Origin: Neovahlkampfia damariscottae
Lineage: Eukaryota; Heterolobosea; Selenaionea; Neovahlkampfiida; Neovahlkampfiidae
Assembly: GCA_016618085.1 (NCBI GenBank)
Contig: JABLTG010000090.1
Span: 17,814 to 81,813, forward strand
DNA: 64,000 nt
Direction: 5' to 3'
Positions 1-53,593 of this stretch are shown piece by piece; the stretch's first letter is position 1; every line of letters starts with the position of its first letter. The notes below the pieces were generated by a model. It was not told where the DNA came from, made no database searches, and was given only the letters and a program-made list of their open reading frames with translations. The translations under genes were made by a program, and so were the position numbers.

Positions 1-562
1 TTGAAACTTCATTAACATCTTCTATTTGTCCAACGTAGATAACACCTCTGAGAGTATCCCATCTATTATCATAAGAAAGATTGCCATCTGTTAATATAGA
101 TCCTAATAATCTTGCTAAACTTTTACAAACTTCCACATCATTTTCAGTTATAGGCAATTGTCTAGGAAAGTCATTAATTCTACCAAAATCTGAAAGCATT
201 TTTTTTGTTAAAATAGGCAATCCATTTTCTTTGTAAATAGGAGATTCTCTAAGGATAGGAATATCTTCTTTTATAATGAGGTCCCCAATTTCAATATCCT
301 TAGTTTCTTTCCATTCTAATTTGCTTTCTCTTTTGTCATAAATAAGAATTTTATGATCTCCAGTGCATGACAATTTTGTCCCATCAAGAAGAACCATTTC
401 AAAGCATTCTTTAATTCCTTGGTTCATTACATTTAACACTTGTTGAAATTCACGTTTTCCATTATCAGTATTGCATGTGCTAACAATATCGCCAATTTCA
501 ATATTTTGAATAGGTTTAGCTGTGCCATCATGTAATGTAATAGGTGTATCTTTTACAATGCA
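1..562 (-). other. Intein, N-terminal 187 residues (Hint splicing domain plus start of LAGLIDADG endonuclease), in frame in the GTPBP1-like gene
   Basis: The in-frame insert starts with Cys (codon 562-560) followed by [17 protein letters not shown], a classical intein block A with the ...I-x-x-GD pattern (NIEIGD). About 55 residues on, [16 protein letters not shown] matches block B with the TxxH motif (T-G-D-H). A second IEIGD turn follows. Further on, [18 protein letters not shown] resembles block C of dodecapeptide (LAGLIDADG) homing endonucleases. The insert is open to the window edge. Its position inside the third domain of a conserved GTPase, between His and an expected Cys, is typical of inteins and unlike hedgehog-type Hint domains, which sit at protein ends. 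The C-terminal blocks F and G (His-Asn and the +1 Cys) are off window. Confidence 0.9.
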
Positions 563-2359
563 ATGAATTACAGGTTGATAATTTGAAGAAATAGTTGTTG
601 AATGATAAAGTACAATAACTTCTGCAGCAAATTCCCAAACTGCATCTGGATGTTCATCTTCAACCATAACCATACCTTTTCTAATATTTGATCTTTTTTC
701 TTTACGAAGTGCAAGTGATGCTGTTTGTCCTGCATGAACTGATTTTACTTGATTTCTTTTACAATGAATTCCTTTAATTTGAACTTTTTTCCACTGTCCA
801 TTTCCATCAGGTCCAAGTGTTAAAGTGTCATTAACACTAATAGTTCCTTGAGTTACGATACCTGAGACAACTGTACCAACACCAGTAACATAAAATGTTT
901 GATCAATGAAATATTCACTCTTTTTATCAATTTGTGATTCCCAATCTTTTCTTAAAGGCACTAAATTCAAGAATTGCTTTAATAAATCTAAATTTTCTCC
1001 TGTGACATGGGACACTAAAAATATTGGTGAAATACGATCTGAAACAACATTCTTTGAACAAGTTATAACATCATCTTCATTTTTAATCATGTAAGGTAAT
1101 TTTCTGACACCTGGTAATTTCAAAATTTTGTTAATTGAGTTTAATGTTTCTTTTAAAATATTTTCTGGACAAATATCAATTTTTGTTACAATAAAAATCA
1201 TTGGTAATTTCAAAGCAATGCATAAACCAATCTAAAAATTAAAAAGTAATTTTTCTTTTACATGTTCTTTTGTCATACGAGTGACACCCATATTAGCACC
1301 AATTACAATTAAAGCATAATCAGGAACAGATCCAGTCATACCAAATACAGTTGTTTTTAAATATTTTTCATGTCCAGCAAGATCAATAAACCTAAAAAAA
1401 AAATAGAATATTAAAAAACAAAATTTCCGACTTACGTAATTACTTTTGAACTTTTGTCAATGATTTGTTTCCATGAAAGTGATCCTTGAATTTCATTTTC
1501 TGAGTAATTGACAATTGTTCCTTTTGAATCAAATCCCATAATTTGATGAGAAATACTTGAAGTTCTTCCAGTTGTAACTTCATGTTTATGATTGAAGACA
1601 TTCATTCTAGCTAATCCTCTTCCATTATCTAATTTACCTTTAGTCAAAACACCAATTAAAGTTGACTTGTTGTTTAATTTTTTTTTTTGAAACTTACTTT
1701 TCCAGAGTCAACGTTTCCACATACAGCAATTCTTAAATCAAGATATTTTTCATCTTCAAATAAACGAACTAAAACTTCAGCAACTCTTTTCTTTTCTTTC
1801 TTGTTCTTTTTGTCTTCAACAAGTTTTTCACAAATAATGGACACATCTGCATTGATATCTGCAGCCATTTTTTTCAGAGTATCATAAGTTTCTTTAAATT
1901 CTTCATCTGTTAATCCAACTGGAATACCATCATCTGTGATTCCAATTTCATAAATTGCTTCTCCTTGTCCTTCTGAAAGTCTGAAATTCATTTGACTCAC
2001 TAAGTGTTTGAATCTATCAGGTGAAACATTAACTAATTTCCACTTGTACTCGATGTTTCCTTCATCGTTCTCTGTTAAAGGTTGTTTTTAATTTTTTTTT
2101 TTTTTTTTGAACCTTGCTCCAAAACGTCTTTTCCCTGTAAAATTGATTCTCCTTGGTACATTTGTGGTTTTTTCTCAATTTTTACATCATCTTCAAATAG
2201 TGAAGTGTGTTTATGGGGACTCATTGGGCTATCGTCGGTTATAATGTCTTCACCTATCGAAGTTTGTTAGATTTATTGTGTCTAACCTTCAAGTAGCTGT
2301 GAATTACTAAAAACAGCTTTGTGCTCCAGTTTACCATTCTTTGAGTTTTGTTTACTCAT
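1..2359 (-). CDS. GTPBP1: GTPBP1-like translational GTPase interrupted by an intein (3' part off window)
   Basis: Homologue of eukaryotic GTPBP1/2, an EF-Tu-like GTPase linked in the literature to mRNA surveillance and ribosome rescue. Exons on the minus strand are 2359-2287, 2253-2113, 2071-1698, 1665-1436, 1391-1262 and 1231 to the edge; introns are 30-44 nt. The ATG at 2359 opens an acidic leader. The 539 host residues seen include the GTPBP1-type stretch [12 protein letters not shown], the P-loop GNVDSGK|STLIG (split by an intron), DLAGHEKY (DxxG), MTKEHIGLC and TKID (NKxD), followed by EF-Tu domain 2. At 562 the host sequence ...NYQPVIH runs straight into an intein beginning with Cys. 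In uninterrupted relatives this His is followed by Cys-Gly-Ser. The rest of the intein and the C-extein lie outside the window. Confidence 0.93.
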
Positions 2360-12166: not shown

Positions 12167-15100
12167 TTAATTGAACACTCTCACAGCAGAAGTTTGTTGC
12201 ATTGGACCAAGTCTGATACCAGTAACTTTGAAAATAGCCGAATTGATTTTTGGTACAGAATAATCAACTGCAATAACAGCAGCCAAACCAAGACGATAAA
12301 ATAAACCTGCAAGAGCACCCATTTGTGCTAAATATTGAAGCAATGTTTGAATAACATTTTCTTTGATGACATAAGTGTTTGGACTTAAAGTGAAATCAAC
12401 AAGTAAAGCTGAACCAGATGCTTGGATTGTACCTCTAGAGGCAGTGACTAGATTTGAAAGATAACCTTCTGACTCTGAAGTAAATAAACCATCACCAAAT
12501 ATTTCAAATAATTCTAATACACCTGCTAATGGTGGTTGAGCATCATATTGAGCTGGATAAAGTGCAACAGACAATTGAGTTGGAATTGGAGTTGCAACTT
12601 CTACATCAAGTAATTCAATAGTACCATTAATTTGATGAGATTCTCCTGTGTAATGAGGTACAAATATTCTATATCTAATTAAACCTGAAACAGAAGGTAA
12701 CGTGAAATTGTATCCAAGTGAAACATCTTTTGGTTTACAATTTTCACAAGCCCAATAACAATCACATCCATAATCAAATAATTGACAATTTGATTTTCCA
12801 GGGTTTGTAAATCCATTTGTAGTTGTAATTGAAAATCCATTACAAGTTGTATTTTGACCAATAAATTGAGCAGTAACATTGAATGTTCCAGTGGCTTGCA
12901 ATGATTTTCCAGTTGTTTGCAATGATTCTGTAATGATAACATTGTCAAATGCAAATGTTACTGTTGATGATATCATGATAAATGTGATACCTAAAAGAAC
13001 AACAACTGTAATTAAACCACCATGATTTGTTTTTTGATAGAAATATGTAATGTGTGATAAATCTTGTTGTTTATCTACTAAAGTAGTTTTCTTTTTACTG
13101 AATGCAATATCAAATACTCTTAAGAAATTAAGTTGACGTGTAATGATAAAAATAACAATTAAAGCTCCAACAACTACAACAATTTCAAGGAATAGAATTG
13201 GCCAAATCAAAGAATTTTGAATAATCTCAATAGTTTGTCTTGTTGCAGCATCTCTTGGAACTCTTGGATCATATCCTTCTCCACGAACATCAAGTGTACC
13301 TAAAAATGAAGGAACACCAAGACCAGATCCAATTGGACAATATCCAGTACAATTTGTACAACTTGGACTTCCAGGAGCTTCAGCACGTGTATTTTTTGGA
13401 CATGGTGTACAAGAAATTGATGAAGTTTGAGCAACTTTTGGATTTTGAGTACCAATTGGACAAAGTGTACAATTGTCATTTGGCTTTCCAACTTCGAATG
13501 AATATGTACCAGCTGGACATGCTTGACATTCAATTGAATTTTCAACTGAAGAATAATAACCCTTTGAGCAAGTTGAGCATGATGTAGCATTCAAAACATT
13601 TGAATATTGACCTTTAGGACATGGAGTACATTCAGATACATCTTTCAAAGCAGCTTTTGTTGCATAAGTACCTTTAGGACAAGCAATACATTCATATGAG
13701 CCTTCTTTATTTTGATAAAACCCTAGAGGACAATCTAAACAAACACTATTTGGATTCTTTGGACCACTATCAAGTGAAAATGTTCCCTTTGGACATGGAA
13801 GACAAACATCTTTTGTATTTGGAAATGAAAATGGATCAGCATATGTTCCACGTGAACAATAAATACAACCATTATTTTTAGTTCCATTTATTTCAGTGTA
13901 AGAACCATGTGGACAAGTTGCACATAAAGTTTGAGCATCTTTTTCACCATAGGTTCCAGGTGGACAATATGGACAAGTGTTGTTTCTTCCTTCAAATGTT
14001 GAATTGGATCCTTCTGGACAAGGTAAACAAAAACTTGATGAAAATGCTCCTTCAATAGTGGAATAAGTTCCAACAGGACAATTCAAACATGTTGAAACTG
14101 AATTTGAACCAACTTCAATTGAATAAGTTCCAGCAACACATTTTGGACAGATAGTTTGTCCTAATTGAGAGTTGTAGGTTCCTGGTCTACATTGTTGACA
14201 GTCTTCAGATGAATTTGAACCCAAAACAGTTGAAAAAGAACCTAACGGACAGGATAAACAAGTTTCTCTCGAAATAGCTCTTGGAAATGAAGAGAAAAAT
14301 CCTGCTGCACAAGGAGTACATTGAGACAGGTTTTTAGCTCCAGAAAGACTTGAATAAGTTCCAGCAGGACAATCAATTGCTTGGGATACAGATACTGCTC
14401 CTTTAAGAGGTAAATATGTTCCAATAGGTGATAATTGACAAGAACTTTGACCAATTTGGTCATTGTATGTACCTTCAGCACATTTATAGCACAAATCTGA
14501 GGAGTTTGCTCCAAGGATTGCTGAGAATGTTCCAAGTGGGCAAGGTTTACAATCATCTTTTGAAATAGCAATTGAGGTATTTGAGAAAGTTCCAATTGGG
14601 CAAAGAGTACATGAAGATGATCCTTTCAATGCATAACTACCAGTTGCACATTTTGTACATGCTGATGGTTTGTCAGCTCCTTGTTCTGAAGAAAAGTAAC
14701 CTGCGTCACAAGGAATACAAAAATCACTGGAATTTGCAGCAATAGTAGTTGAAAAAGATCCTGCTGGACATTTTAAGCATGAAGTTTTTGAAGTAGCTGA
14801 CAAGATTGGAGAATAAGTTCCTGCAATACAAGATTCACAAATACTTGCTCCCAATACTGATGAATAAAATCCAGGAGCACATTGTCGACAATCTGTACTT
14901 GTATTTGATCCTAAAACAGTGGAAAATGTTCCAACAGGACAAAGTTGACAAATTGAGTCAGCACGAGCTCCAGCTAATGGTGAAAAACTACCTTTTGGAC
15001 ACTTGATACAATTAGCAATAGATTGACCACCTTCTAAAGGTTGATAAGTTCCGGCAGGACATTGTTGACAATCTTCTTTCTTCAATGAACCAATTGCATC

Positions 15101-18100
15101 TAAATATGTACCAGGAAGACATTTACTACAAACAGTAGCTCCAGATGAAGCTTCATATTCTCCTTTCCCACAAAGTGAACAAGTAGAAGAAGAATTTGCT
15201 CCAAAAACATTTGAAGATGAACCAGGTGAACATGCCAAACATGATGTGATATTTCCACCAAACACTAAAGAATATGTTCCACGTGGACAATCAATACAAT
15301 CTTTTCCACCAGGGTTTGAATAAGTTCCAGGAATACACCTTTTACATGTATCATTTGATGTAGCACCAAAAACTGAAGAAAAAGTACCTTCTTCACAAGA
15401 TTCACATGTGGTTTCGGAAATTGCAGCAATAGCAGTTGAATAAGTACCTGTTGGACAGAGTTGACATGCTGTACGTGCGTTTGAAGCAGTGTTTGGATTG
15501 TATGTACCAGCAGGACACAAAAGACATTCTGTAGCAGCAAGTTGTTCTGAATAAGTTCCAGGTTTGCATTGAATACATGATGCAGATGCATTAACACCAG
15601 TAACATTTGAATAAGTACCAGTTGGACATAATTGACAAGCAACTTCAGAAGTTGCTCCCAATAACTCTGAGTAAGTTCCGACTCTACATTTGATACATAA
15701 ATTTGATGAATTTAATCCAATTGTTGGTGAATAAGTACCAGCAGGACATGAAATACATTGAGACAAGGAAGATATTCCAAGTACATCTGAATAAGTCCCT
15801 ACTGGACATAAAGTACATGAATCTTTTCCAAATTCATCAGTATAAGATCCAACAGGACAAGCTTTACATGTTGAAGTTGTGTTTGCACCAACTACTGTGG
15901 AAAATGTTCCAGGAGCACATGACACACAAGCTGTTTCATTACCTCCAGGGTAAATATTATATGTACCAGTTGGACATTTTGTACAAGAAGTAGAACCAGC
16001 TGCTGAAAATGTACCTGAAGGGCAAATGTTACATTGAGATGAATTTGTTTGACCAGATACTATACCAAAGCTTCCAGCAGGACATTTAATACATCCACTT
16101 GTTGAATTTGTTCCAAATATTTCGGTGTATGTACCAGCTGGACAATCAATGCAAGTAGTTTCGGCATTTGCACCAAGAAGGGCAGAATATTTCCCTGGAA
16201 CACATTTTTTACAAACAGTTTCACCAAGAAGATCATTATAAGTACCTGCTGGGCAAACAACACAACTATCACTTGTATTTTGACCAGCATTTGGTGAAAA
16301 TGTACCGACAGGACAAACGTTACACAATGACAAAACATCAGCACCAGGTATGATTGAATATGTTCCTGGTGGACAATCAATACACTGAGAACTTGAATTT
16401 AAACCATAATTTGGTGAGTATGTGCCAGTTTTACATTTTTCACAACTTGTTGTCAAATTGAATTTGGTATTGAAAGTACCAGGTTCACATAATTTGCAAG
16501 ATGTTGAAGCTTCATTATCTTGATAATATCCAGGTGGACATGAAAGACAATAAGTTGATGAATCTGCTGCAACGGTTGTTGAATAAGTTCCCTTTGGACA
16601 TTTGATGCAAGATGATAAATTTCCACCAGCATAATCTAAATAAAATCCAGCTTCACAAGAAGTACATTCATAAGATCCTTCAGCTGAAACAAAACCAGCA
16701 GGACATTTTTCACAAGTTGAACTTGAATTTGCTCCTTTTTTAGCAGAGAAATAACCAGCAGGACATTTAATACAATCACTTGTTGAGTTTGCAGCATATT
16801 TTGTTTGGTAAGTACCTACAGGACATAAATAACATGTAGTAGCTGCATTTTCTCCTTTATCAATTGAATATGAACCTGGAGGACATTTATGACAAAATGT
16901 TGATCCAAGACCAGTTGTATAAGTTCCAGCTGGACAATATGAACAAGATTGTGATGAATTTCCACCAGTTTTTGGATTGAAAGTTCCATCAGGACATAAT
17001 GTGCAGTTGGCAATTGAAATTGATCCTAAAGCATTTGAAAATGTTCCAGCAGGACATTCAAGACAATTTGAACTTGAATTTGATCCTAATACATTGGAGT
17101 ATGTTCCTTTTGGGCAAAGTTCACAAAGGTTCACATCTGTGAGTTTTGAATTTGACGAAAATCTTCCAGCTGGACATTTGACACAAAAATGACTTCCTTC
17201 AGCATCAATGAAAGTGCCAGGAGGACAATCAATACAAGATGAAATATTTTTTGCCGCAATTTCTGAAGAATAAGTTCCTTTTGGACATTTGTTACAATAT
17301 GTGAAATTTCCACCTTTGAAAGAATTATATGTTCCAACAGGACAAACAGTACAACCAGTTGCTCCTTCATTTGAAACAGTACCTTCAGGACATTGTTGAC
17401 AAAATGAAACGGAATTTGCTCCTTTCGTATTTGAAAAGGTACCAGCAGGACATTTGAGACAATTTGAAAGTGCAGGTGCTCCGATTGTTGTGGAGTATGT
17501 ACCAGCTGGACAATTTAAGCATGTAGTTTCTGTATTTGCACCAATAGTTGTTGAATAAGTTCCTGGAATGCATCTACTACAGTTTGTAGTTCCTAACTTT
17601 GATGTATAAGTACCAGCAAAACATGGAGAACAAGTTTCACTGGAATTTGCACCAATTTCAGTTGAGTATGAGCCAACTGGACACGATTCACAAATTGCTA
17701 ATGATACTCCTCCAGTAAATTTATTAAATGTTCCAGCTTCACAAAGAGTACAAAGTGAACTTGAATTTAAACCTTCAGTTGGATTATAAGTTCCAACAGG
17801 ACATTCTTGGCAAGAATCTAAAGATGAGCTTCCACTATTTGGATTGAATGTACCAACTGGACATAATTTACAGGTAGAAGAAGCTTCTGTATCTCCATAA
17901 GAACCTGGATCACATGATTTACAAAATGTGATATTGTTCGCACCAACAGTTGTTGAGTAAGTACCCTTTGGACATTTGATACAAGAGGTAGAATTTCCAC
18001 CTTCATAATCCATGTAAAAACCACCTGGACATAAAGTACAAGATGTTGATCCTTCTGCAGAAACTGAACCTTTTGGACAAATATTACAAGTAGTTGGGTC

Positions 18101-21100
18101 TGTGGCTCCTGTAGCAGATGAATAATATCCTGCAGCACATTTTTGACAATCAGTTGTCGAGTTTGCAGCTAATTTAGTTTGGTATGTACCTGTTGGACAT
18201 TCCAGACATGTAGTTTGAGCATTTGCTCCAACAACATCAGAATAAGTTCCTTTTGGACATAAAGTGCAGTTTGTCGATCCAACATTGTCAGAAAAAGTTC
18301 CAGCAGCACATAATGTGCATTGTCTTGTGGTATTAGCTCCAGAGTAACCTAAATAAGTTCCAGCAGGACATAATTGGCAAGTTTCAATTGTTGTTGAACC
18401 GACAATTGTTGAGAAAGAACCAGCGAAACATTTTTTACATTGAGAACTTGTATTAAATCCTGTTTCATCAGCATAAGTACCAGCAACACATTTTTCGCAA
18501 GTATCAATTGAAATCGCTCCATATGCTGTGGAATATGTACCAAATGGGCACAATGAGCAACCAATGCTTCCTTCAGAATCAGAAAATGATCCTGGTGGAC
18601 AAGAAATACATTTAGTAATGTTATTTGCTCCAAAAATTGAAGAATATGTACCTTTTGGGCATTTCAAGCAAGATGTTTCATTTCCTCCAAATACTTCAGA
18701 GTATGTACCTTTTGGACAGTTCGTGCAAGACGTTGATTTGGCAGATGAAAATGTTCCAGGTAAACAGGTTTGGCAATCTGCTGGATTTGAAGATCCAAAA
18801 ACAGCAGAATATTTTCCAGCCAGACATGGTATGCAAAATGAACTGGAATTAGCACCAGTTGTTGTTGAATAAGTTCCAACAGGACAATTGAGACAAGTTG
18901 TTTTTGAATTTGCACCAGTTTCTTCTGAATATGTTCCTGGCTGACAAGAAATACAAGTGTCAGCACCAGAAATATCTGAATATGTTCCTGTTGGACAACT
19001 ATTGCAAGTTTCAAGTGTTGTAGCTCCTAATGCAGTTGAAAATGTTCCAATTGGACAACGTTGACAAATAATGTTCGATGATTGTCTGGTATATTTTGAA
19101 AATGTACCTGTTGGACAGAGTTCACAAACGCCAACTGATGTACCAGCAGTTCCATTAAAGTATCTACCAGCGGGACATGAAACACAATCATCATGAGTGA
19201 AACTACCAATTTTATCATTGTATGAACCTGATTCACATGATAAACAACTTGTAGATCCCGTTTTATCTTGATAAGTTCCAGTAGCACATTTTTGACAAGT
19301 TAAATTTGTATTTGCTCCGACAATGGCAGAATAACTACCAATCGGACAAGGAATGCATGAAGTTTCATTTCCATTGAATACTTCAGAATAAGTACCAGCA
19401 GGACAGTTAATACAACTTTTTAAACCTTTCAATGAATATGTACCAGGTGAACATGATTGACAAGTTGCATTTGATACTGCTCCAACTTCTGAAGAAAAGA
19501 ATCCATCTGGACATTTTATACAATCATTTGATGTATTTGCAGCTAATTTAGATGAAAATGTACCTTCTGGACAAGATATACAACTTGTAACAGAATTTGA
19601 ACCCAAAGAAGTTGAATAAGTACCGGCACCACATTTTTCACAATTTACTGTTCCAGTTGTGATAGAGTAAGTACCTTTTTCACATAAATTGCATGTGGTA
19701 CTTGCATTTGCACCAGAAGTTTGAGAAAATGTCCCAGTTGGACAGAGTTGACAAATAGAAATTGAATCAGCTCCCGTAATCGATGAAAAAGAACCTTTTG
19801 GACAATCCACACAAGCCAATGATGAATTTGCACCAACTGTTGTTGAATAGGTTCCTGCAATACATTTTTTACATGTTGATGAGGATTGACTTTGAATTTC
19901 TGTTGAAAAAGTACCTGCAATACAAGAAGTACATGATATACTTCCTTCTTCATCAGCATATGTTCCAGCAGCACATGGTTGGCATGAAATATTAGAAGTT
20001 GCGCCAACATTCATGGAGAAGGTACCTTTTGGACATTTTTGACATGCCAAAAAAGAGCCATTTGTATTCGGATTGAATCTTCCTGCTGGACATAATGTGC
20101 AAGTTGTTGAACCACTTGCAGAATATGAACCAGAAGAACAAGGAAGACAAACTGAATCATTTGTTGCTCCTATTGTTGGTGAATAATAACCTTCAGGGCA
20201 TTTAACGCATAAATCTGAGGAATTTGCTCCTTCAATTGAACTATAAGTTCCTCCTGGGCAGCCTACACATGTTGTGAGAGCATTAGCACGAGATATTGTT
20301 GAGTAAGTACCAATTGGACATTTAATACAAGCTGTAGCTCCCAAGGTTGTAACATATGTACCAGGTTGACAAGCTAAACAATTTGAACTTGAATTTGATC
20401 CAGTAACTGTGGAATAAGTGCCAGGTTCACAAAATTCACATGTAGAAATTGTTGTTCCTCCTTCAAAAGGAGAAAAAGTTCCTGGTAAACAAAGTTGACA
20501 CAATGAACTCGAATTTAATCCCAAAGTGTTTGAGAAAGTACCAGTCGGACATTTTATACATGAATCTTCTGATGTACTTCCATTATTTGGATTGTATTTA
20601 CCAAGTCCACATAATTGACAATTTGTACTTCCCTCAACATCAGAGTAAGATCCAGCTGGACAACTAAGGCAATCACTTAATGAATTTGCTCCAATTTTTG
20701 TTGAGTATGTACCAGTTGGACATTTGTTGCATGAATTTGTGTCTCCTCCTGAAGTGATAGAATATGATCCAGCTGGACAACTTTCACAACTTGATGAATT
20801 CACTGCCGAGTAAGTTCCTGAAGAACAAATTTGACATGTTGAGTTTGAGTTTGCTCCTATAGCTGTTGAGAAATAACCAGCAGCACAAATTAAACATGTT
20901 TCACTTGTAGTAGCGCCTATTGTAGTTGAATAAGTACCTTTAGAACAAGGAATGCATGTTGTTACATCTGTTGCCCCAACTTCTGATGAATAAGTGCCAG
21001 CAATACAAGATGTGCAATTTGAAGATCCAGGTAAAGAAGAATAAGTTCCTTGAGGACATTGAATACAGACATCTGATGATCCTACTTCCTTTGAGTATCG

Positions 21101-24100
21101 ACCAACTGGACATAATTGACAAACAGATTTTGTTGCTGCACCAACAATGTCAGAAAATGTGCCATTAGGACAAAAAGTACATTCTCCAATTGATTGAATT
21201 CCTTCATTGATTGAATAAGTTCCTTTTGGACATGACAAACATGTGACATCTGAGGTTTGTCCAACACCAGTTGAGTATGTTCCCTTTGGACATGATGTGC
21301 ACTGAGTGGTCGCATTTTTTGATGTATATGTTCCTTTTGGGCATTGTAAACATGTAGAAATTGAAGTTGCGTTTGTCACGTTTGAGTATGTCCCTATTGA
21401 ACATGGTGTGCAAGTTGAACTTCCTCCAATAGAATAATAACCAGCAGGGCATGATAAACATGAACTAAAACCAGTTGTTGGTGTATAGTATCCAGGTGAA
21501 CAATCTTGACAAGTAGAAATTGAAGTTGCTCCAGTTGCAGATGAATATTTACCAGCTGCACAAGAAACACAAAAACTAGATGAGGTTGCGCCAACTGTGG
21601 TTGAATAAGTTCCAGCAGGGCATTTGTCACATGTACTGGCAGTATTAGCTCCAATAACAGTTGAATAAGTTCCAGCAGTGCAATTGGTGCAAACTGTTTT
21701 TGCAAATTCTGAAGTGTATGTACCAGCAGGGCATTGAAGACAATTCAAACTTGAATTTGATCCTACTAAATTTGAGTAGGTTCCAATTGTACATGGAAGA
21801 CATTCATCGGAAGTAGTTGCTCCAATTTTCAATGAATAAGTTCCTGCTGGACAATTTTGACAAGTTGCAACTGATGTAGCTTTAATTGTTGTTGAATATG
21901 TACCAGCAACACAAGGAGTGCATGATGAAGAAGCATTTGAAGAATAAGTTCCTACTACACAATTCAAACACGAAGTTGATCCATTTGCTGAAGAGTATGT
22001 TCCTTCAAGACAATCAGTGCAAGTGTCAATTGATGAAGCTCCAACAACTGTTGAATATTTTCCAGATTGACATGGAATACAAAAAGAACTTGATGAAGCA
22101 GCTATAGTTGTAGACCAAGTTCCAGCTGGACAAGATTCGCAAGTAATTGGTGTGTTTGCTCCAATAACTGTTGAAAATGTTCCAGCGCTACAATTTGAGC
22201 ATGCAGATGTTCCAAGAGAATTTGAATATTTTCCAGCTGGGCAAGGAACACAAGTAGTGTGTGATGATGCTCCAACTACAGAAGAATAAGTACCAATTGG
22301 ACATAGATCGCAATCTCCAAGTGAGGTTGCTCCATATATTACTGAATAACTTCCAACAGGACATTTTACACAAGTCGAATTTGAAGTCGCAGAAACATTT
22401 GTTGAATATGTTCCAGGTTCACATAAAGAGCAAGTTCCTGATGCTTCCAACGAAAATGAACCAGCAGGGCATGCAATACACGAACTAGATCCTTCTGTTG
22501 ATGCATAACTCCCAGCAGGACATTTCTGACATGTTGCTGCTGAAGTTGCTCCCAAAGTTGATGAGTAATATCCAATGCCACATTTTAAACATTCTGATTT
22601 AGATTTCAATCCTCCAATAGATGAGTAACTTCCAGCAGGACATTGTTGACAAGAAGAAATTGAGTTTGCTCCAATCGTTGGAGAAAATGTTCCAGCGCTA
22701 CAATTTCTACAAGATGATGAACCAGATACAGATGCATAAGTTCCTGCAGCACATAAAATACATGCAGAAGTCGAGTTAGCAGCAAGTGTATTTGAATAAG
22801 TTCCAATTGGACAAAATTGACATTCAGATTTTGTTGTAACTCCTTCAACTGTAGAATAAGTTCCCACTGGACATGCTTGACAATCAGAAACAGATGTACC
22901 AACAACAGATGCGTAAGTACCTGCAAGACAGTTAGTGCAAGTTGCTGCTGAAGTTGCTGAGATTGTTGTTGAAAAAGTACCAACAGGACAGGAAGTGCAT
23001 TGTGAAGATCCAGCAGTCGAATACGTACCTTTTCCACAAGGTTGACATGCCGTTTGATTGGTTGCTCCTAATTCTGATGAATAAGATCCAGCTAAACAAT
23101 TTGTACAAAATGAAATTGATGTCAATCCAAAAATTGATGAATAGGTTCCGCCTGGACATTTTTGACAAGTAGTTGAAGATTTAGCTCCGACAGTTGATGA
23201 GTAAGTCCCTGCAGTACAATTTGTACAAAAACTTTGACCTGTTGTCGTCGAGTATGTTCCAGCTGCACATTGTTGACATGTTGAACTAGAATTAGCTCCA
23301 AGTACATTTGAATAACTTCCAATTGGACAAAGTTGACAATCTGAAAGAGTTGAAGAGCCTACAACTGAAGAATAAGTCCCAAGAGGGCATTGAGAGCAAG
23401 ATGTTGTTTCATTTCCTCCTTTTTGTGTTCTATAAGTTCCTGCAGCACATGAAATACAGGCTGTTGAAGAATTTGCACCAATTGTAGTAGAATAAGTTCC
23501 AGCGGAGCATAAGGTGCAAGATGATGATCCTGGACTGGAAGAATAAGTTCCAGCAACACAAGATTGACAGGTAGCAGAAGTTTGGGCACCTAAAACTGAC
23601 GAAAATTTCCCTGCATCACATTGAATACATTTATCAAGTGAATCTGCAGCGATTTCCGAAGAATAAGTACCAGTAGGACATTTTTTGCAACTAGTTGAAG
23701 AACCTGCTCCTATAACATTTGAATATGTTCCAGCTGTACAATTTGAGCAAGAGGTAGATCTAAGAGTGGACGAATATGTTCCAGCAGGACATTGAGTACA
23801 AGTTGAACTTGAATTTGCTCCAATCACTGTTGAAATTGTACCAATAGGACAAGATTGACATAATAAAATTGATGAAGCTCCTTCAATTGAAGAATAAGTT
23901 CCACCAGGACAAGGAGAACAACTACTAATTGATGTAGCTCCAGAAACTGATGAATAAGTGCCTATTGGGCATTTCTGACAAGTTGAAGAACTTGTAGCAC
24001 CAATAGTTTCAGAATAGGTACCAGCTTCACATTTTGAGCATGAAGAAGAACCATCTGTTGAATATGTGCCATTTGGACAAGTTAAACAAGTTGAAATATT

Positions 24101-26185
24101 TGAAGCGCCTAAAGTTGCAGAATATGTTCCAGCAGCACAAGCAGTGCATTGAGAAATTGAAGTTGCTCCTGTTACTGATGAATAATAACCAGATGGACAT
24201 TCTGTACATGTAGCAACTGAAGAAGCGCCAACAGTTTCAGAGTACGTACCAGGAAAACAACTTTTACATGAATTGGATCCTGGATTTGCTGCATAAGTAC
24301 CTGCTTCACATTTTTGACAAATAGAACTTGAATGTGCACCTTCTGTTTTTGAGTATGTTCCAATTGGACATGAAATACAAAAAGATTCCGATGAAGCACC
24401 TTCAGTTGAAGAATAACTACCAGCAGTACAATTTTGACAAACTGATGTTGTGTTTGCTCCAAGAACTGTTGAAAATGTACCAGTTGGGCATTTAGTACAG
24501 CTTGTAGATGAAGTAGCTCCATCTGAAGTTGAATAAGTTCCAGCAGCACATGAGTTACAAGTTGTTTTTGAAGAAGCTCCAATTTTTGAGGAATAAGTAC
24601 CAGAAATACACTTTGTGCAACTTGATGAGCCTAAATTTGATGAATATTCTCCAACACTACAAGGTACACATGTTGAACTTGATGAAGCACCAACAGCAGT
24701 TGATGTTGTACCTGCAGGACATGATTTACAAATACCAATAGTTCCAGTTGAATCTGAAGCACTAAAATAAGTTCCAGCAGGACATGAGTTTGATGCTCTG
24801 CAATATGGAGTTGTACTTTGTGAAGCAGTTGTACAAACAGCAGCTATAGCGCACATATGAAAATCTCCTGAGTAAGCTGCTACAAAACCAGATTCGCCAG
24901 CAGCTACAATACTTGTAACTGATACAGAAGTTGGTGTTGGTAAACTTTGAGCACTTGACCCAGAACCTGAGATTCCTAGATAAAAAGTTTAAAAAAAAAA
25001 GAAAAAACCATTTGCGTTTGAACCAAAAGTATAAATTAATCCATTTTTCATAAAAACACTGCTGTGATAAGCACCAGCAAAAACTTTTAAAATTTGATCA
25101 TTTGTTCCTAAACTAAATCCAAAATTAACTAAAACTGGTTGAGATCTTGAATTAAAACTTCCATCTCCTAATTGAAGGTTTAAATTACTACCCCATGAAG
25201 CAACAGTTCCATCACTCAGTAAAGCAAGTGAATGATCATAACCACATGCAACTTGTTGAACAAATTTGTTTTTTAGAACTCCAGAGACGTCAACAGGAAC
25301 TGGTTTGAGTTGATTAGCAGTTGATCCAAGAATTCCAAGTTGTCCATTAAAGTTAGCACCCCAAGAAATAGCTAAACCATCATCTATTGAAGAATTTAAT
25401 ATAATAAAAAAAAAACCTGTGGAAACTAATACATGTCCTCTTCCAGCAGCCGCAGAAACAATTTTTCTGGAAGCAAATAAAGTTACATCAATTGTTTCAG
25501 CTGTAGTTTTATTAGCAGTTGTTCCGGAACCAAGTTGACCATAAACTCCAGAACCAGAAGAAAAAATAGCCGTGTCTGAAATGAAAACAGCAAAAGCTGC
25601 TCCATCCATTGAACCGGAAACAACATCACGATAACCATTAAATAATAAAGTTGGTACTGTATTTGTGGCACCATTGTTTCCATATTGACCTTTTTTTTAA
25701 TTTTTTTTTTTTTTTCTTACCATTATCATTTGAACCCCAACCATAAACATTATTGCTTGTGTCAATAGCAAAAGTAGTTGTACCACCTGTTGTGGAATGA
25801 ATTGATTTTATAGTAGATGGAAATGATATTTTTGTTTGAACAGAACCATCAATTATTCCTGGGTTTCCGAGAACTGAATCAACATTTGAACCAAAAGCAT
25901 ACAAATTGTTATTTTCTGTGACTACAAAAGAAGTAGATTTACCCATTCCTGATCCTAATAATGTTGCTGTTTTATTAAATTCATCAATAGGTGTTATAAG
26001 TGTTGGATATTTTTGATTTATTGTTGAACTAATTCCTAATTGACCTTTATCATTCAAACCCCAACAAAAAACTAATTTTTTTTTTTAATATATTTTTTAA
26101 TACCTTGGCGAGTATTTACGACAAGACATGTTGACAGGAATAAGATTAAAAGAAAAAAGAAACGGTTTAGTTTTTTGGTTGACAT
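12167..26185 (-). CDS. Giant RCC1 + GCC2/GCC3-repeat transmembrane protein, about 4,629 residues
   Basis: Five exons (26185-26104, 26071-25721, 25689-25417, 25383-25009, 24975-12167); introns are 31-33 nt. The signal peptide (FFFLLILFLSTCLVV) is followed by an RCC1 propeller of about 350 residues with repeats such as VFCWGLNDKGQLG, VYGWGSNDNGQYG and ISWGANFNGQLG. Then come some 3,800 residues of ephrin-receptor-like (GCC2/GCC3) cysteine units of consensus CPAGTYSxxxGAxSxxxCxxC. The end has TM segments LIWPILFLEIVVVVGALIV and GGLITVVVLLGITFIMISST, a Cys-rich ectodomain (CDCYWACENC) and a last hydrophobic stretch near MGALAGLFYRLGLAAVIAV. Probable cell-surface adhesion or recognition protein; ligand unknown. 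A TTGGCCAATC box lies 10 bp upstream of the ATG. Confidence 0.9.
13330..24800 (-). repeat. Tandem array of about 160 GCC2/GCC3-type cysteine units (about 72 bp each)
   Basis: Coding repeat inside the giant gene. The unit is about 24 codons, alternating CPxGTYS and GAxSxxxCxxC halves, with two units per domain of about 48 residues. The unit count is estimated from array length divided by unit length, not counted. Units have diverged in DNA sequence, so this is an old expansion rather than a simple satellite. Long antisense open frames across it are by-products of the regular codon pattern. Confidence 0.9.
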
Positions 26186-45501: not shown

Positions 45502-46178
45502 TTAAATACATTGTAAAAAATCTTCGGATTCTTTGAATCTTGCAAATGTTTCATGGAGTTTTAGAACAACTTCAGCTATAAGTTCATCAAAAACAGTTTC
45601 GGAAATTTTTTGACTTCGGAATATTGTTTTTTCAACTCTTTCCACTGCTTCTCTATTTACATCCAAAGGATAATCTGCTTCTTTTGATAAAAATAAATTT
45701 GAAATTTGAAGTAAATCTGCTACCTTTGTTTCTTCGTCTTTTAACTTTTTGAATTTTTTGCATCTTTCCAAGAAAAGAAGATTTTGAAGTGAACTTTTGA
45801 CATTTCAATTTTTTTGTTGACTTACTGTTCTTTTTCAGAAAAATCTTTGAATATTTCTCTTCTTTTTGGATCCGTCAAAATTTGAGGCAATTTTATTTGT
45901 TGGACAATTTGTTCTTTGAGTTGTTTTGCTTTTTCTTCGTTTGTTTCGTCCACCTCTGTTGATTCATTATCTTGTGAGGTATTTTTCTTATCAAGTACAT
46001 CTTGTTTTCTTTCTGGTTGTGTTTTTTTAGTTGGTGTACCAACTGGAGTTGCAGGTGTTGAATCATCAACACTCTCTTTTCTTACTGAATTTCTCAGAGA
46101 TTTGATCCTCATCATCCTGCTTCTTATATCTTCGGCATCACCATTAGTGCCTTTTTCTCTTGCACTGTTGAATAACAT
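45502..46178 (-). CDS. RGS-domain protein of the MLFNSA family, member A
   Basis: 214 residues in two exons (46178-45826, 45793-45502; 32-nt intron inside the RGS domain). The N-terminal motif MLFNSAREKG and AEDIRSRMMRIKSLRNSVRK are shared with the genes at 48882 and 49485. A low-complexity Ser/Thr/Pro linker follows. The RGS domain runs from ILTDPKRREIFKDFSEKEHS through LQNLLFLERCKKFKKLKDEE and VEKTIFRSQKISETVFDELI to ETFARFKESEDFLQCI. It probably accelerates GTP hydrolysis on G-alpha. It ends 17 bp from the DDB1 stop, convergently. A TGACCAATGAAAT box lies about 50 bp before the ATG. Confidence 0.8.
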
Positions 46179-46908
46179 CACTGTTTTTTTTGTCGTTTGT
46201 TTGTGAACTGTAGGTTTAAAAGTGGTCAGTTTTTTGACCAATGAAATTGTTGCAAAATAAAGAGAATTGCCATTTCTGGGTATGCCATTATACAAAAGGG
46301 AGAGTAGGGATAAAAAAGGAAGGGGAAAAACCCACAACTTATTTTTGAGTTTCCTTTCTTGATCAAAATTTGGAAAATTCCTGATTGCAAAAAAGTGATG
46401 AGTATCAAGAATGTATACTTCTACTGAAGCAATTTGAAGACATTTCAATCTTTCCTGATTTTTTCAAAACCAAATTTTTTTTTTTTTTTTTTGTTGTCAT
46501 TTTTTTACTACAATTTTTCTATAACATTATGTGATGACAATTCTGTTCTGCTACTGCAATCTTGTAGATACAACCAACTTACCAAACACAAAATTCCTGA
46601 ATTTTTTTTGTTCAATGATTTGGCTGAAAACACTATGAAAACAACTATGTTTGACAACTTATACTAAATTAGTCTGATTCTTTTTAAAGAAATGAAATTT
46701 CTGAAATTCATATTCATCTAATGCCAGGTCCAACTTTTTCACTCTGTTTTCATTTAATTATAACTTCTTTTAAAAATAACAATCCATTCTGCAGACAAAC
46801 CTTTTGTTGTTGTAGATTAAAAATTCTTACAAACACAATTTCTGAAATTTTTGTTATTATCACTGTTTAATTGTGGTGACTGAATTGGCCAATCTTCATT
46901 CACCACAC
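46179..46908. other. 730-bp divergent gap, no gene identified
   Basis: Lies between the outward-facing RGS member A and the Notum-like gene. It holds a CCAATGA box at about 46239 near the first and TTGGCCAATC at 46886-46895 near the second, plus a T18 run at 46474-46491. A short protein-like patch (TKHKIPEFFLFNDLAENT, about 46590-46640) has no start or splice context and may be a relic. Confidence 0.4.
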
Positions 46909-48076: not shown

Positions 48077-48882
48077 TTATTTTAAAACACATTTTAATGC
48101 TTCATCCGATTCTTTGAAGCTTATAAACATTTCATGAAGCTTATCGATAACTTCTGCAATTATTTCGTTGAAGACGTTGTCTGAAATTTTTTGAGACATA
48201 AAAATAGATTTTTCAACCTTTTCGACAAGCGTTGGATCAACTTCCAATCTATTTTCAGATATATTAGATAAATAACAATTTGAAATATCAATTAATTCTA
48301 CTAATCTTTTTTTTTCGTCTTTAATTTTTTTGAATTGTTTGCATCTTTCTAAGAACGAAATGTAATGATCACATCTTTGAAAAAGTTAGATTTTTTTTGG
48401 AGTTCTTACTCTTCATCTTTACAATACTCTCTAAAAATTTCTCTTTTTTTTGGATCTGAAAGAACTTGTGATAGACACAAATCATCAACCATTTGAACTT
48501 TCAACTCCAATTCTGAAAGTTGTTGAGTGGTATCTGGTCCATCATATAAATATTCATAGGTAGCTTCAAGCACATAGTTTCGAAAAAAAGGTTTTCCTTC
48601 CATTTTGAATGAAGCAGCACAAGAAGTTGTTGGATACATGAATTTCTTTACTTCATCTTCAAATGAAATCCTTTCTGAAGAGTGTCTTATATTTGATTTA
48701 GATTCTTTTTCGGATGATGTTTTTTTAACTGGGACAAACACCATTGATGATCCAATTGATCTTTCACTGTTGTTCCCTGGTAAATTTCTACTGGTTCTAA
48801 CTCTCATCATTCTACTTCTGATGTCTTCTGCATAATCAGTTCCACTTTGCTCTGTTAAGTCACTCCCACTATTGAAAAACAT
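48077..48882 (-). CDS. RGS-domain protein of the MLFNSA family, member B
   Basis: 256 residues in two exons (48882-48410, 48374-48077; 35-nt intron at the same place in the RGS domain as member A). Starts MFFNSGSDL, then YAEDIRSRMMRVRTSRNLPG. A middle block KPFFRNYVLEATYEYLYDGP is shared with the gene at 49485. The RGS part is VLSDPKKREIFREYCKDEEC, DHYISFLERCKQFKKIKDEK, VEKSIFMSQKISDNVFNEII and MFISFKESDEALKC. The ATG lies about 30 bp downstream of an ATTGGCCAATG element; a longer frame lacks ATG. Convergent with the Notum-like gene, 28 bp apart. Confidence 0.8.
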
Positions 48883-49068
48883 GTTTTTTTTGTTCAGTTG
48901 AAGAGAAAGTGGATTGGCCAATGATAAAAAAAAATCAACTTATATTGGATGGACATTTTGGGATAAAAAAATGACTGGAAGTACAAAAGTAGAAGTTACT
49001 TTGTCACCCAAATCGGGTCTTAGTATTTAAAATAAATAAATAATACAAAAGTTTTTAATACAGATAAG

Positions 49069-51024: not shown

Positions 51025-53593
51025 ATGAATTGGAAACATTTGAAGAACCTGAAGAATTCTCCATTTCCTTTGGAAGAATTCAAAATCATTCAAAAACCAA
51101 ATACCCTTTTGTTTTATTTATTTGGAGGTTATAGCAGACTTGGAATTGTCAACTCAGATATTTTTGAATTCAACTTAGAAAACTTAGTTTGGAAAAAAGT
51201 TGAAAATCAACAAAGCAAAATCGAATTACCAAAAGGACGTTTTGGACACTCATTTGACTTAATTCAACAGGACAAGATTTATTTATTTGGAGGAAAGTCT
51301 TACTGTAAGTGTTTTTTTTTTTTTAAATTATTCAAAGGGCAAAATTTCGATGAGATTGAAAATATTTTATACGAATTTGATTTAAACATTAATAAGTGGT
51401 CCATAGTGAAGAATAAATCAACAAGTTCCCCAGAAGAAAGATTTTATCATGCTTCTTGTTCGACAGATAATTTTCTTTTTATTCAAGGTGGTTATAATTT
51501 TGGAGAATTAAGTGATTTTTGGAAATTTGATATTAAGTCTCAAAAATGGATAAATATACATGATAATATGAATCAAAAACCATCAGCAAGATATCATCAT
51601 CAAATGTTTTCTAATGAAAACAAAATTTATTTGATTGGTGGAATGTTCAAGGATGTACCTTACAAAGAAGTTTGGGAATATGATATCACATTAAACAAAT
51701 GGTGTAATATAGGTATCTAAAATGATCATTTTGATTTTATTTTTTTTAAAGGATTAAACTCGTCTTTTCAAGAAATGATTCCTATGAAAAATGCTGGAAT
51801 GTTTCAAATGAAAGAATTTTCTGTTTTACATGGTGGAATCACAAAAATGAGTAGATTTTCTGAATATTTAAATGACTTGTTAATTTTTGATTCAAGTAAC
51901 TTTTTGGTACTATTTATTTTTTAGAGAAAAAGAAATTTTTTTCAATTGAAAATTCTGATTTGAAATTGAATCTTTATGGACACTGGTAACAATAAAATAC
52001 TCTTAATTTTTAAGTATTGTTGGGCTGAAAAGAACCATTTTAATTTTTGGTGGCAATTATGGGAGTATTTATAACTTGGTTTCATATGGTGAAACTTGTC
52101 TTTTAGATTTTGGAAATGATGAAATTTATCAAAAATTATTATCAAAGTCAAAAGAAATTGAACCATCAAATTCAGAAAAAGAGACTATTTTTTTGGTAAA
52201 TGAGCAACATTCCGATGATGAAGAAATTATTGAAACAGAAATTTTGTTGGACGATTCAAGCAATAAATCAATTCCAAAAGCACCTGGTCCACCACTACCA
52301 CCTTCAAAAATATCCAAAAAAAAGATCAAAACCAAGAAATTTCATTGTTTTCCAATCCCAAAAAATGAATTTTCAAACTCAATTTTCAACCTCAAAAAAA
52401 TATCAAAAAACTCACAACTCATTAAATTGAATGAAAATGAAATTTGTGAAAGATTTGCTGTAAAGCCAACAAAGAAACTACAATCATTAGAAAGTGACAC
52501 AAAAAATGAAACAATTTCATTAATTAGTGCAAAAAGAACCCACAGTCTAGCAATTCAAATTAAAGCTATAAAACTATCAATAGATGAAATAATTGAATTG
52601 ATTTTAGAATCATCATTAGAAGTAAAACAATTCTTCCTCTAATAAAATCCAGATTGACGAAGACTTATTGGAAATTCTAATTGGACTATCACCAACAGAT
52701 GAAGAAATTCGTGTTATCAAAGAATATGCAGGTGATATTTTATTATTATCATTAACAGATCTTTATTTTTATAAAATCAAATCAATTCCTGATATCCAAG
52801 AACGTTTGAAGTTATGGAAATATCGAAAATGTTTTGACAATGCAACAGAAAATATTTTAAGAGATATTTCAATCATCAATAGTACCAAAAAAGAATTGAC
52901 AGAAAATCCAAAATTCTTAACATTTTTATCGATTATTTTGGCAATTGGGAATTATATGAATGACACAAATTCTTCAGGATTTCATTTGAACTCATTGCTT
53001 AAAGTAATCATTTTCAAAACTCAAACTTTGAATAGTTGAATGACACTAAAACAATTGACAATAAATCAACATTGCTTGATTATATCATTGAAATCATTGA
53101 ATTGAATTATAAAGAAATTTCAAATTTCAATGAAGAATTGATGAATGTTAAATTGGCACATGAGAGTATCTCTTATTCATTTTTAATTTTTAAAGAGAAT
53201 ATTAAGGAATTGACAGAGTCCATAAGAGTTTTGAAGAGAAATTATAAATACTTACTTCCTCAACTTGAAAAACAATATAATGCTCAAATACCAAAAGATC
53301 AATTTTATCATCAAATGATCAGTGAAAATTTCATTGAAAGGGCAAATCAAGTGATCAAAGAAATTGAAGAAAAATTTGATGAAATGTATAAGAATTTAGA
53401 ATTATTATCAAAATTATTCAATGAAAAAGAATCAACTATGAAAACAAATCCAGAGGAATTCTTTCAAAATTTGAATCAATTTTTGAATCTTTATGAGGTA
53501 ATCATTTCAAAACAGATCATTCTAAATTTTTTAATGTAGAAATCTCAAAAGAAATTTATCTCTAAAATTAAAAATAAAATTGAGTTTGAATAA
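51025..53593 (+). CDS. Kelch-repeat formin (kelch + FH2)
   Basis: 777 residues in eight exons (51025-51304, 51338-51712, 51752-51895, 51925-51985, 52015-52621, 52653-53003, 53036-53497, 53540-53593); introns are 29-42 nt. The N-terminal half is a kelch propeller (YLFGGYSRLGIVNSDIFEF, GRFGHSFDLIQQDKIYLFGG, FLFIQGGYNFGELSDFW, IYLIGGMFKDVPYKEVWEY). A minimal proline stretch (APGPPLPP) stands in for FH1. The FH2 domain has ISAKRTHSLAIQIKAIKLS, EYAGDILLLSLTDLYFYKI, LAIGNYMNDTNSSGFHLNSL and NDTKTIDNKSTLLDYIIEII. It should nucleate or elongate actin. No Rho-binding GBD/FH3 region is present, so kelch probably replaces it in targeting. Confidence 0.9.

Follow-up and report, generated by a model that had tools for sequence, protein, structure and literature searches.

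A probable endonuclease-bearing class 1 intein in a GTPBP1-like translational GTPase gene of Neovahlkampfia damariscottae

Class 1 inteins splice by an N-S shift, transfer to the residue at the +1 position, cyclisation of an asparagine and an S-N shift. Where do such elements live in nuclear genomes? The available part of the survey by Green et al. (2018) names Prp8, VMA1, RNA polymerase subunits, ThrRS, GLT, CHS and eIF5B as the commonest nuclear hosts, reports nuclear inteins from fungi, choanoflagellates and social amoebae as well as a single apusozoan and a single green alga, and counts 257 inteins across nuclear and chloroplast genomes combined, more than half of them fungal (PMC5784728). 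Goodwin et al. (2006), in the accessible portion of their paper, expected more inteins to appear as more eukaryotes were sequenced (PMC1635734). The original prediction for the locus described here held that nuclear inteins are rare and have a few named hosts; that much agrees with the available text of the survey, and its list has to be extended by threonyl-tRNA synthetase and eIF5B (PMC5784728). Like the inteins in that text, the insert reported here occupies a conserved site of a conserved protein in what appears to be a nuclear gene, and eIF5B, like GTPBP1, is a translational GTPase (PMC5784728). GTPBP1 does not appear in the host table as available to us, a list confined to the commonest hosts (PMC5784728), and a joint search of the open-licence literature found no paper on an intein in GTPBP1. 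As far as could be checked, the intein allele and its host protein are both new, and the kind of element is already known.

The insert lies at one end of the window, by which we mean the whole stretch of 64,000 nucleotides that was analysed (contig JABLTG010000090.1, positions 17,814 to 81,813). Its host gene begins with an ATG at 2359 on the minus strand and, in the N-extein, encodes a GTP-binding domain, an EF-Tu-like domain 2 and the start of a domain 3, with PVIH as its end (Table 1). Pfam matched GTP_EFTU_D2 (E 1.3e-10) and, over the start of that model, GTP_EFTU_D3 with an E of only 0.021. The identification of the host as GTPBP1-like was sustained by a PDB search: the extein aligned from query position 72 to 539 with residues 87 to 548 of chain 9ypg_jj, the sole GTPBP1 in a listing of 33 PDB sequences, with an E of 2.4e-150 and a score of 504.6 bits, as against 63.8 bits for the runner-up, an EF-1 alpha. 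The best match thus assigns the protein to GTPBP1 rather than to EF-1 alpha, SelB or EF-Tu. The exon next to the insert is part of a 410-residue ORF (1231..2, minus strand) that runs open into the window edge; its residues 1-223 still belong to GTPBP1, and the insert starts with residue 224 (codon 562-560, TGC). The junction at position 562 and the unbroken passage of the frame from GTPase into insert, on the minus strand, were as predicted, as was the presence of 187 residues of the insert within the window.

The five introns of the gene were called from reading frame and homology; all are GT..AG and measure 30-44 nt. Pfam searches of 10 neighbouring ORFs returned, among others, eukaryotic domains (DDAH, RGS, RhoGAP with C2, B-box with BTB, a DDB1/CPSF-A-type protein, and La together with an endonuclease/exonuclease/phosphatase domain). 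The inferred spliceosomal-type introns and these neighbours suggest that the GTPBP1-like gene is most simply nuclear, in keeping with the setting first proposed for it. Two other window genes appear to have GT..AG introns of 33 nt each, similarly short and rich in T, at 51305-51337 (plus strand) and 25416-25384 (minus strand); across the three genes the inferred introns are very short, and several contain long runs of T or A. Elsewhere in the window, 12167-25696 (minus strand) carries an ORF of RCC1 repeats and then an open frame of 4273 residues made of ephrin-receptor-like cysteine-rich repeats (33 stretches), with a GC content of 0.33-0.39 per 2 kb against 0.23-0.31 in the rest of the window. 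The ORFs at 45822-46463 and 48406-48939 (both minus strand), otherwise unlike, have EDIRSRMMRxxxxRN in common and L[TS]DPK[RK]REIF near both C-termini.

Table 1. Features of the GTPBP1-like gene and its insert (positions in the window; a slash marks the point of joining)
Feature	Position	Strand	Basis
Intein, N-terminal 187 residues (Hint N-half and start of endonuclease domain)	1..562	-	Profiles, open frame, coding bias; continues past the window edge
Cys1, predicted splicing nucleophile, block A	560..562	-	Invariant in two small alignments
Block B, T67-G-D-H70 (TxxH)	353..364	-	H70 invariant in two small alignments
First LAGLIDADG motif LLGSILTDG, residues 152-160, Asp kept	83..109	-	Regular-expression match
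N-extein, GTPBP1-like translational GTPase	563..2359	-	539 aa once the five inferred introns are removed
Inferred intron 1, 33 nt	2254..2286	-	GT..AG, frame restored; outside the GTPBP1 alignment
Inferred intron 2, 41 nt	2072..2112	-	GT..AG, frame restored
Inferred intron 3, 32 nt	1666..1697	-	Within P-loop codons (GNVDSGK/STLIG); removal gives unbroken GTPBP1 alignment
Inferred intron 4, 44 nt	1392..1435	-	Removal gives gap-free alignment with GTPBP1
Inferred intron 5, 30 nt	1232..1261	-	Removal gives TKEH/IGL; starts GTAAAA

The insertion site can be fixed closely. The extein alignment stops at PVIH, whose histidine corresponds to residue 548 of chain 9ypg_jj, and the chain, printed across the site by a second query bearing a GTPBP1 tail, reads ...MVHCGSIRQTATILSM, with Cys at residue 549. 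Because His548 is followed directly by Cys549 in this uninterrupted chain, the insertion is placed to one residue, at VIH/C at the start of domain 3; in this one eukaryotic homologue the next residue is indeed the cysteine that had been expected. The C-extein lies outside the window, and with Cys549 of the uninterrupted solved homologue at the +1 point, the equivalent cysteine is the predicted +1 nucleophile.

A comparison with archaea was made on at least 120 homologous genes fetched through the motif GHEPWLRTT, in a sample rich in haloarchaea. These GTPBP1-family GTPases, which we take to be COG5258, are homologous to the host protein (best 37% identity over 472 positions) and share its YxPVIH-like strand; unlike it, they are uninterrupted at the domain 3 site in 108 of 108 readable genes (107 read by script and L075 by eye, the other 12 ending before the site). 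Among the 107 genes read by script the +1 residue is Leu in 74, Val in 17, Ile in 7, Cys in 5, Ser in 2, and Met and Ala in 1 each, so that 98 have Leu, Val or Ile, and Cys occurs in five, plus L075. The one eukaryotic GTPBP1 compared has the +1 Cys on which the intein depends, yet in the archaeal sample this residue is a minority state. The archaeal genes with Cys at this position are L007, L049, L065, L079, L125 and L075; four of them (L007, L049, L075 and L079) come, by their titles, from Calditenuis-like genomes.

What kind of element begins at this junction? The N-terminal intein blocks that had been described were found, Cys1 at 562-560 and CTGDH at 367-353, the latter in the stretch CTGDHKIL, which is followed by EIGDLI. 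The invariance of Cys1 and H70 was read from two alignments, of 6 and 7 rows, in which the insert was set against Hint regions of phages and archaea; the 7-row one leaves out L128. The insert is in frame and free of stops, the host is continuous on its N-terminal side, position 1 of block A is a Cys and block B has its TxxH, all as in class 1 inteins. Profile searches agreed in kind but fell short in score. Pfam returned Intein_splicing (3.7e-8), Hint (9e-5), Vint (0.0032) and Hom_end_hint (0.011), and an NCBIfam model of an intein-containing radical SAM protein matched at 2e-8 across profile positions 76-150. When the intein part was the query, intein_Nterm TIGR01445 matched at 8.1e-5, its position 1 aligning at Cys1 of the insert; with the whole ORF as query the value was 2.7e-4 (21.9 bits). 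Intein profiles were hit, but none of Intein_splicing (33.8 bits against 35.8), Hint (22.6 against 29.7) and TIGR01445 (23.5 against 24.5) reached its curated cut-off, which is a database criterion and not a biological one. Since 94 of its 155 positions are covered and the rest of the profile lies beyond the window edge, the shortfall of Intein_splicing can be explained by that edge; the shortfall of TIGR01445 is not explicable by truncation, because all 83 of its positions are covered.

PDB sequences gave weak matches of several kinds: an intein C-terminal splicing domain protein (0.001), hedgehog 1at0 (0.0011) and the gp41-1 intein (0.0068), followed by DnaX and DnaE inteins. The place of hedgehog chains among the best of these, together with the Pfam Hint match, would suit a Hint domain of the hedgehog or bacterial-intein-like type that does not splice, cutting GTPBP1 behind its N-terminal part and ligating nothing. 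We regard such a domain as very unlikely here: Intein_splicing outscores Hint (3.7e-8 against 9e-5), where a hedgehog or Hog-type domain would score the other way; an endonuclease motif comes next; and the insertion falls where the uninterrupted protein continues with a cysteine, a residue for which such domains have no need. A single-sequence AlphaFold model had a mean pLDDT of 38.9, too low to be used.

The endonuclease motif that had been reported, LLGSILTDG at 109-83, is the single match to [LIVF][LIVFA]Gx[LIVWFY][LIVA]x[DE]G in the 19,548 residues of the window ORFs of at least 100 aa, and this regular-expression match has the acidic residue of a first LAGLIDADG motif. The Pfam search found no match to the LAGLIDADG models in the insert, and the reading as a nuclease consequently rests on the one motif and the residues after it. 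Likewise, because the C-terminal Hint half and the C-extein lie beyond the window, the reading as an intein rests on the N-terminal half and the insertion site.

Is the insert coding sequence? Its frame has 0 stops in 187 codons; in the remaining five frames of 1-562 there are 12, 27, 21, 11 and 7. A first-order Markov simulation gave a mean of 16.2 stops, and none of 20,000 simulated sequences was stop-free; the open frame is more than chance. By a codon score trained on nine long window ORFs the insert reaches +0.32 bits per codon, where 500 simulated sequences had a maximum of -0.29; the adjacent extein exon (563-1231) scores +0.46, and three host ORFs, themselves members of the training set, +0.37 to +0.38. 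One could still suppose that a spliceosomal or retained intron is open by accident, and a donor-like GTAAAA, identical to the start of intron 5, does stand at 551-556 (minus strand), 6 nt into the insert. Splicing from that donor would put Ile after the Cys where GTPBP1 has Gly, the insert exceeds 560 nt against 30-44 nt for the five inferred introns of the gene, and an intron accounts for neither the 187 stop-free codons nor the coding bias nor the Hint homology. An intron is, in our estimate, extremely improbable.

Composition speaks to the origin of the join. At the three codon positions the insert has a GC fraction of 0.436/0.310/0.171, the whole extein one of 0.451/0.314/0.167. Although the junction is near the window edge, as it might be in an assembly chimera or a contaminant fused to the GTPBP1 gene, this near equality on either side, and an in-frame join at a site exact to one residue and marked by a cysteine, make a chimera highly improbable. 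The correlation of synonymous codon use with the host is lower for the insert (0.74, 53 codons) than for the adjacent extein exon (0.96, 59 codons), which may reflect sample size or a more recent origin.

With 187 residues within the window, the start of the element could be that of a real intein since decayed, its endonuclease, its C-terminal half or both being broken, either in a dead gene copy or as a splicing mini-intein with remnants of a nuclease; mini-inteins, which have no nuclease, are in print in the accessible part of Goodwin et al. (PMC1635734). The 187 residues hold neither stop nor frameshift, their codon score is near that of the host ORFs, and the first LAGLIDADG motif retains its Asp, all of which speak against decay, and we hold it to be unlikely, although worth keeping in mind.

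Taken together, the locus very probably holds a class 1 intein of full length, with an endonuclease, that interrupts a nuclear GTPBP1 orthologue in frame at VIH/CGS, between the His and the Cys. In view are the N-extein and the junction, the intein blocks A and B, a single LAGLIDADG motif and the coding constraint; we infer the C-terminal half, splicing, cutting and homing. How would such an element work? One mRNA, its ordinary introns removed, would yield a precursor protein, in which the Hint domain would turn the His-Cys1 bond into a thioester with the assistance of T67 and H70. The first residue and block B for this step are in place in the insert, and the +1 Cys is in place by homology. 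The N-extein would then be passed to that cysteine (the Cys549 equivalent), and cyclisation of the terminal Asn would leave an intact GTPBP1, the steps past block B being modelled on known inteins. The LAGLIDADG nuclease, if intact, would cut intein-free GTPBP1 alleles at the VIHCGS codons, and repair of the cut allele would copy the intein in (homing).

No close relative of the intein half was found in searches of phages, plasmids, IMG/VR and archaeal genomes. With tblastn at E<=0.01, 142 of 50,697 phage records matched; all 20 of the phage matches listed begin at residue 1, the best of these 20 has an E of 1e-8, and none covers 80% of the query. Six of 72,556 plasmid records matched, every one at less than 33% identity. 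In the archaeal phylum of a Haloferax genome 8 of 294 genomes matched at E<=1e-4, six of the eight from residue 1 and the best at 6.5e-14 (34% over residues 1-137); matches in the phylum of a Calditenuis genome (9 of 250 genomes, E<=1e-4) were weaker, the best at 2.0e-6, and another archaeal genome set gave 0 of 10 at E<=0.001. Three of the Haloferax-phylum matches sit after ...TGWN, in a host that is presumably a family B DNA polymerase; their block B reads SGDH, that of the insert TGDH. These TGWN/C-site inteins are among the best matches, aligning from residue 1 at 30-38% identity in the search and 25-32% in the multiple alignment; the similarity is only distant, and both host protein and site differ from those of the insert.

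IMG/VR gave five pattern matches to the intein half, of which one, L001, is distantly related (41% over residues 44-97), no match to the 410-aa ORF, and 0 matches to an exact 31-base pattern from the window edge. On the viral contig L001, 4200-7508 is a 1102-aa ORF, to our eye a PrkA-type kinase, whose insert has Hint-like and LAGLIDADG-like motifs and ends VNHN/S. The 170-kb viral contig of L135 in IMG/VR (G550:C1:161312-161689) has, in a 1093-aa frame, an intein-like match to query residues 34-161 (E 8.8e-9).

The host protein was also sought in viruses. The extein matched one of 50,697 phage records, at 26% identity. Four IMG/VR scans for GTPBP1 motifs returned 0, 2, 1 and 3 stretches, and the spliced protein had no match in any of the six (limits E<=1e-3 for L133-L135 and E<=1 for L143-L145), although the viral motif may differ; nor did the 410-aa ORF match anything in the whole IMG/VR records of L133 and L134. 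In the literature, Mimiviridae encode GTPBP1-like GTPases, of the same family as the host protein, in a paper from which the word intein is absent (PMC6582330), and a Naegleria-infecting klosneuvirus is described, in the accessible part of its report, with seven intein-containing proteins and 31 translation-related genes (PMC11043551). Neither source, as far as its available text goes, reports an intein in a GTPBP1-like gene (PMC6582330, PMC11043551). Because Mimiviridae encode GTPBP1-like GTPases and the klosneuvirus carries both inteins and translation genes, a viral route is worth testing, and giant viruses with such GTPases are plausible candidate donors of the intein. A bolder scenario, in which an intein still active in homing, housed in a GTPase of ribosome surveillance, passes between the protist and GTPBP1-bearing giant viruses and its splicing rate switches ribosome rescue, strikes us as quite improbable.

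Inteins are scarce in eukaryotes, and a nuclease-bearing one in GTPBP1 would add both a host protein and an insertion site. GTPBP1 would stand beside eIF5B as a further translational GTPase host, and the GTPBP1-like GTPases of Mimiviridae give movement between virus and host a concrete, testable path.
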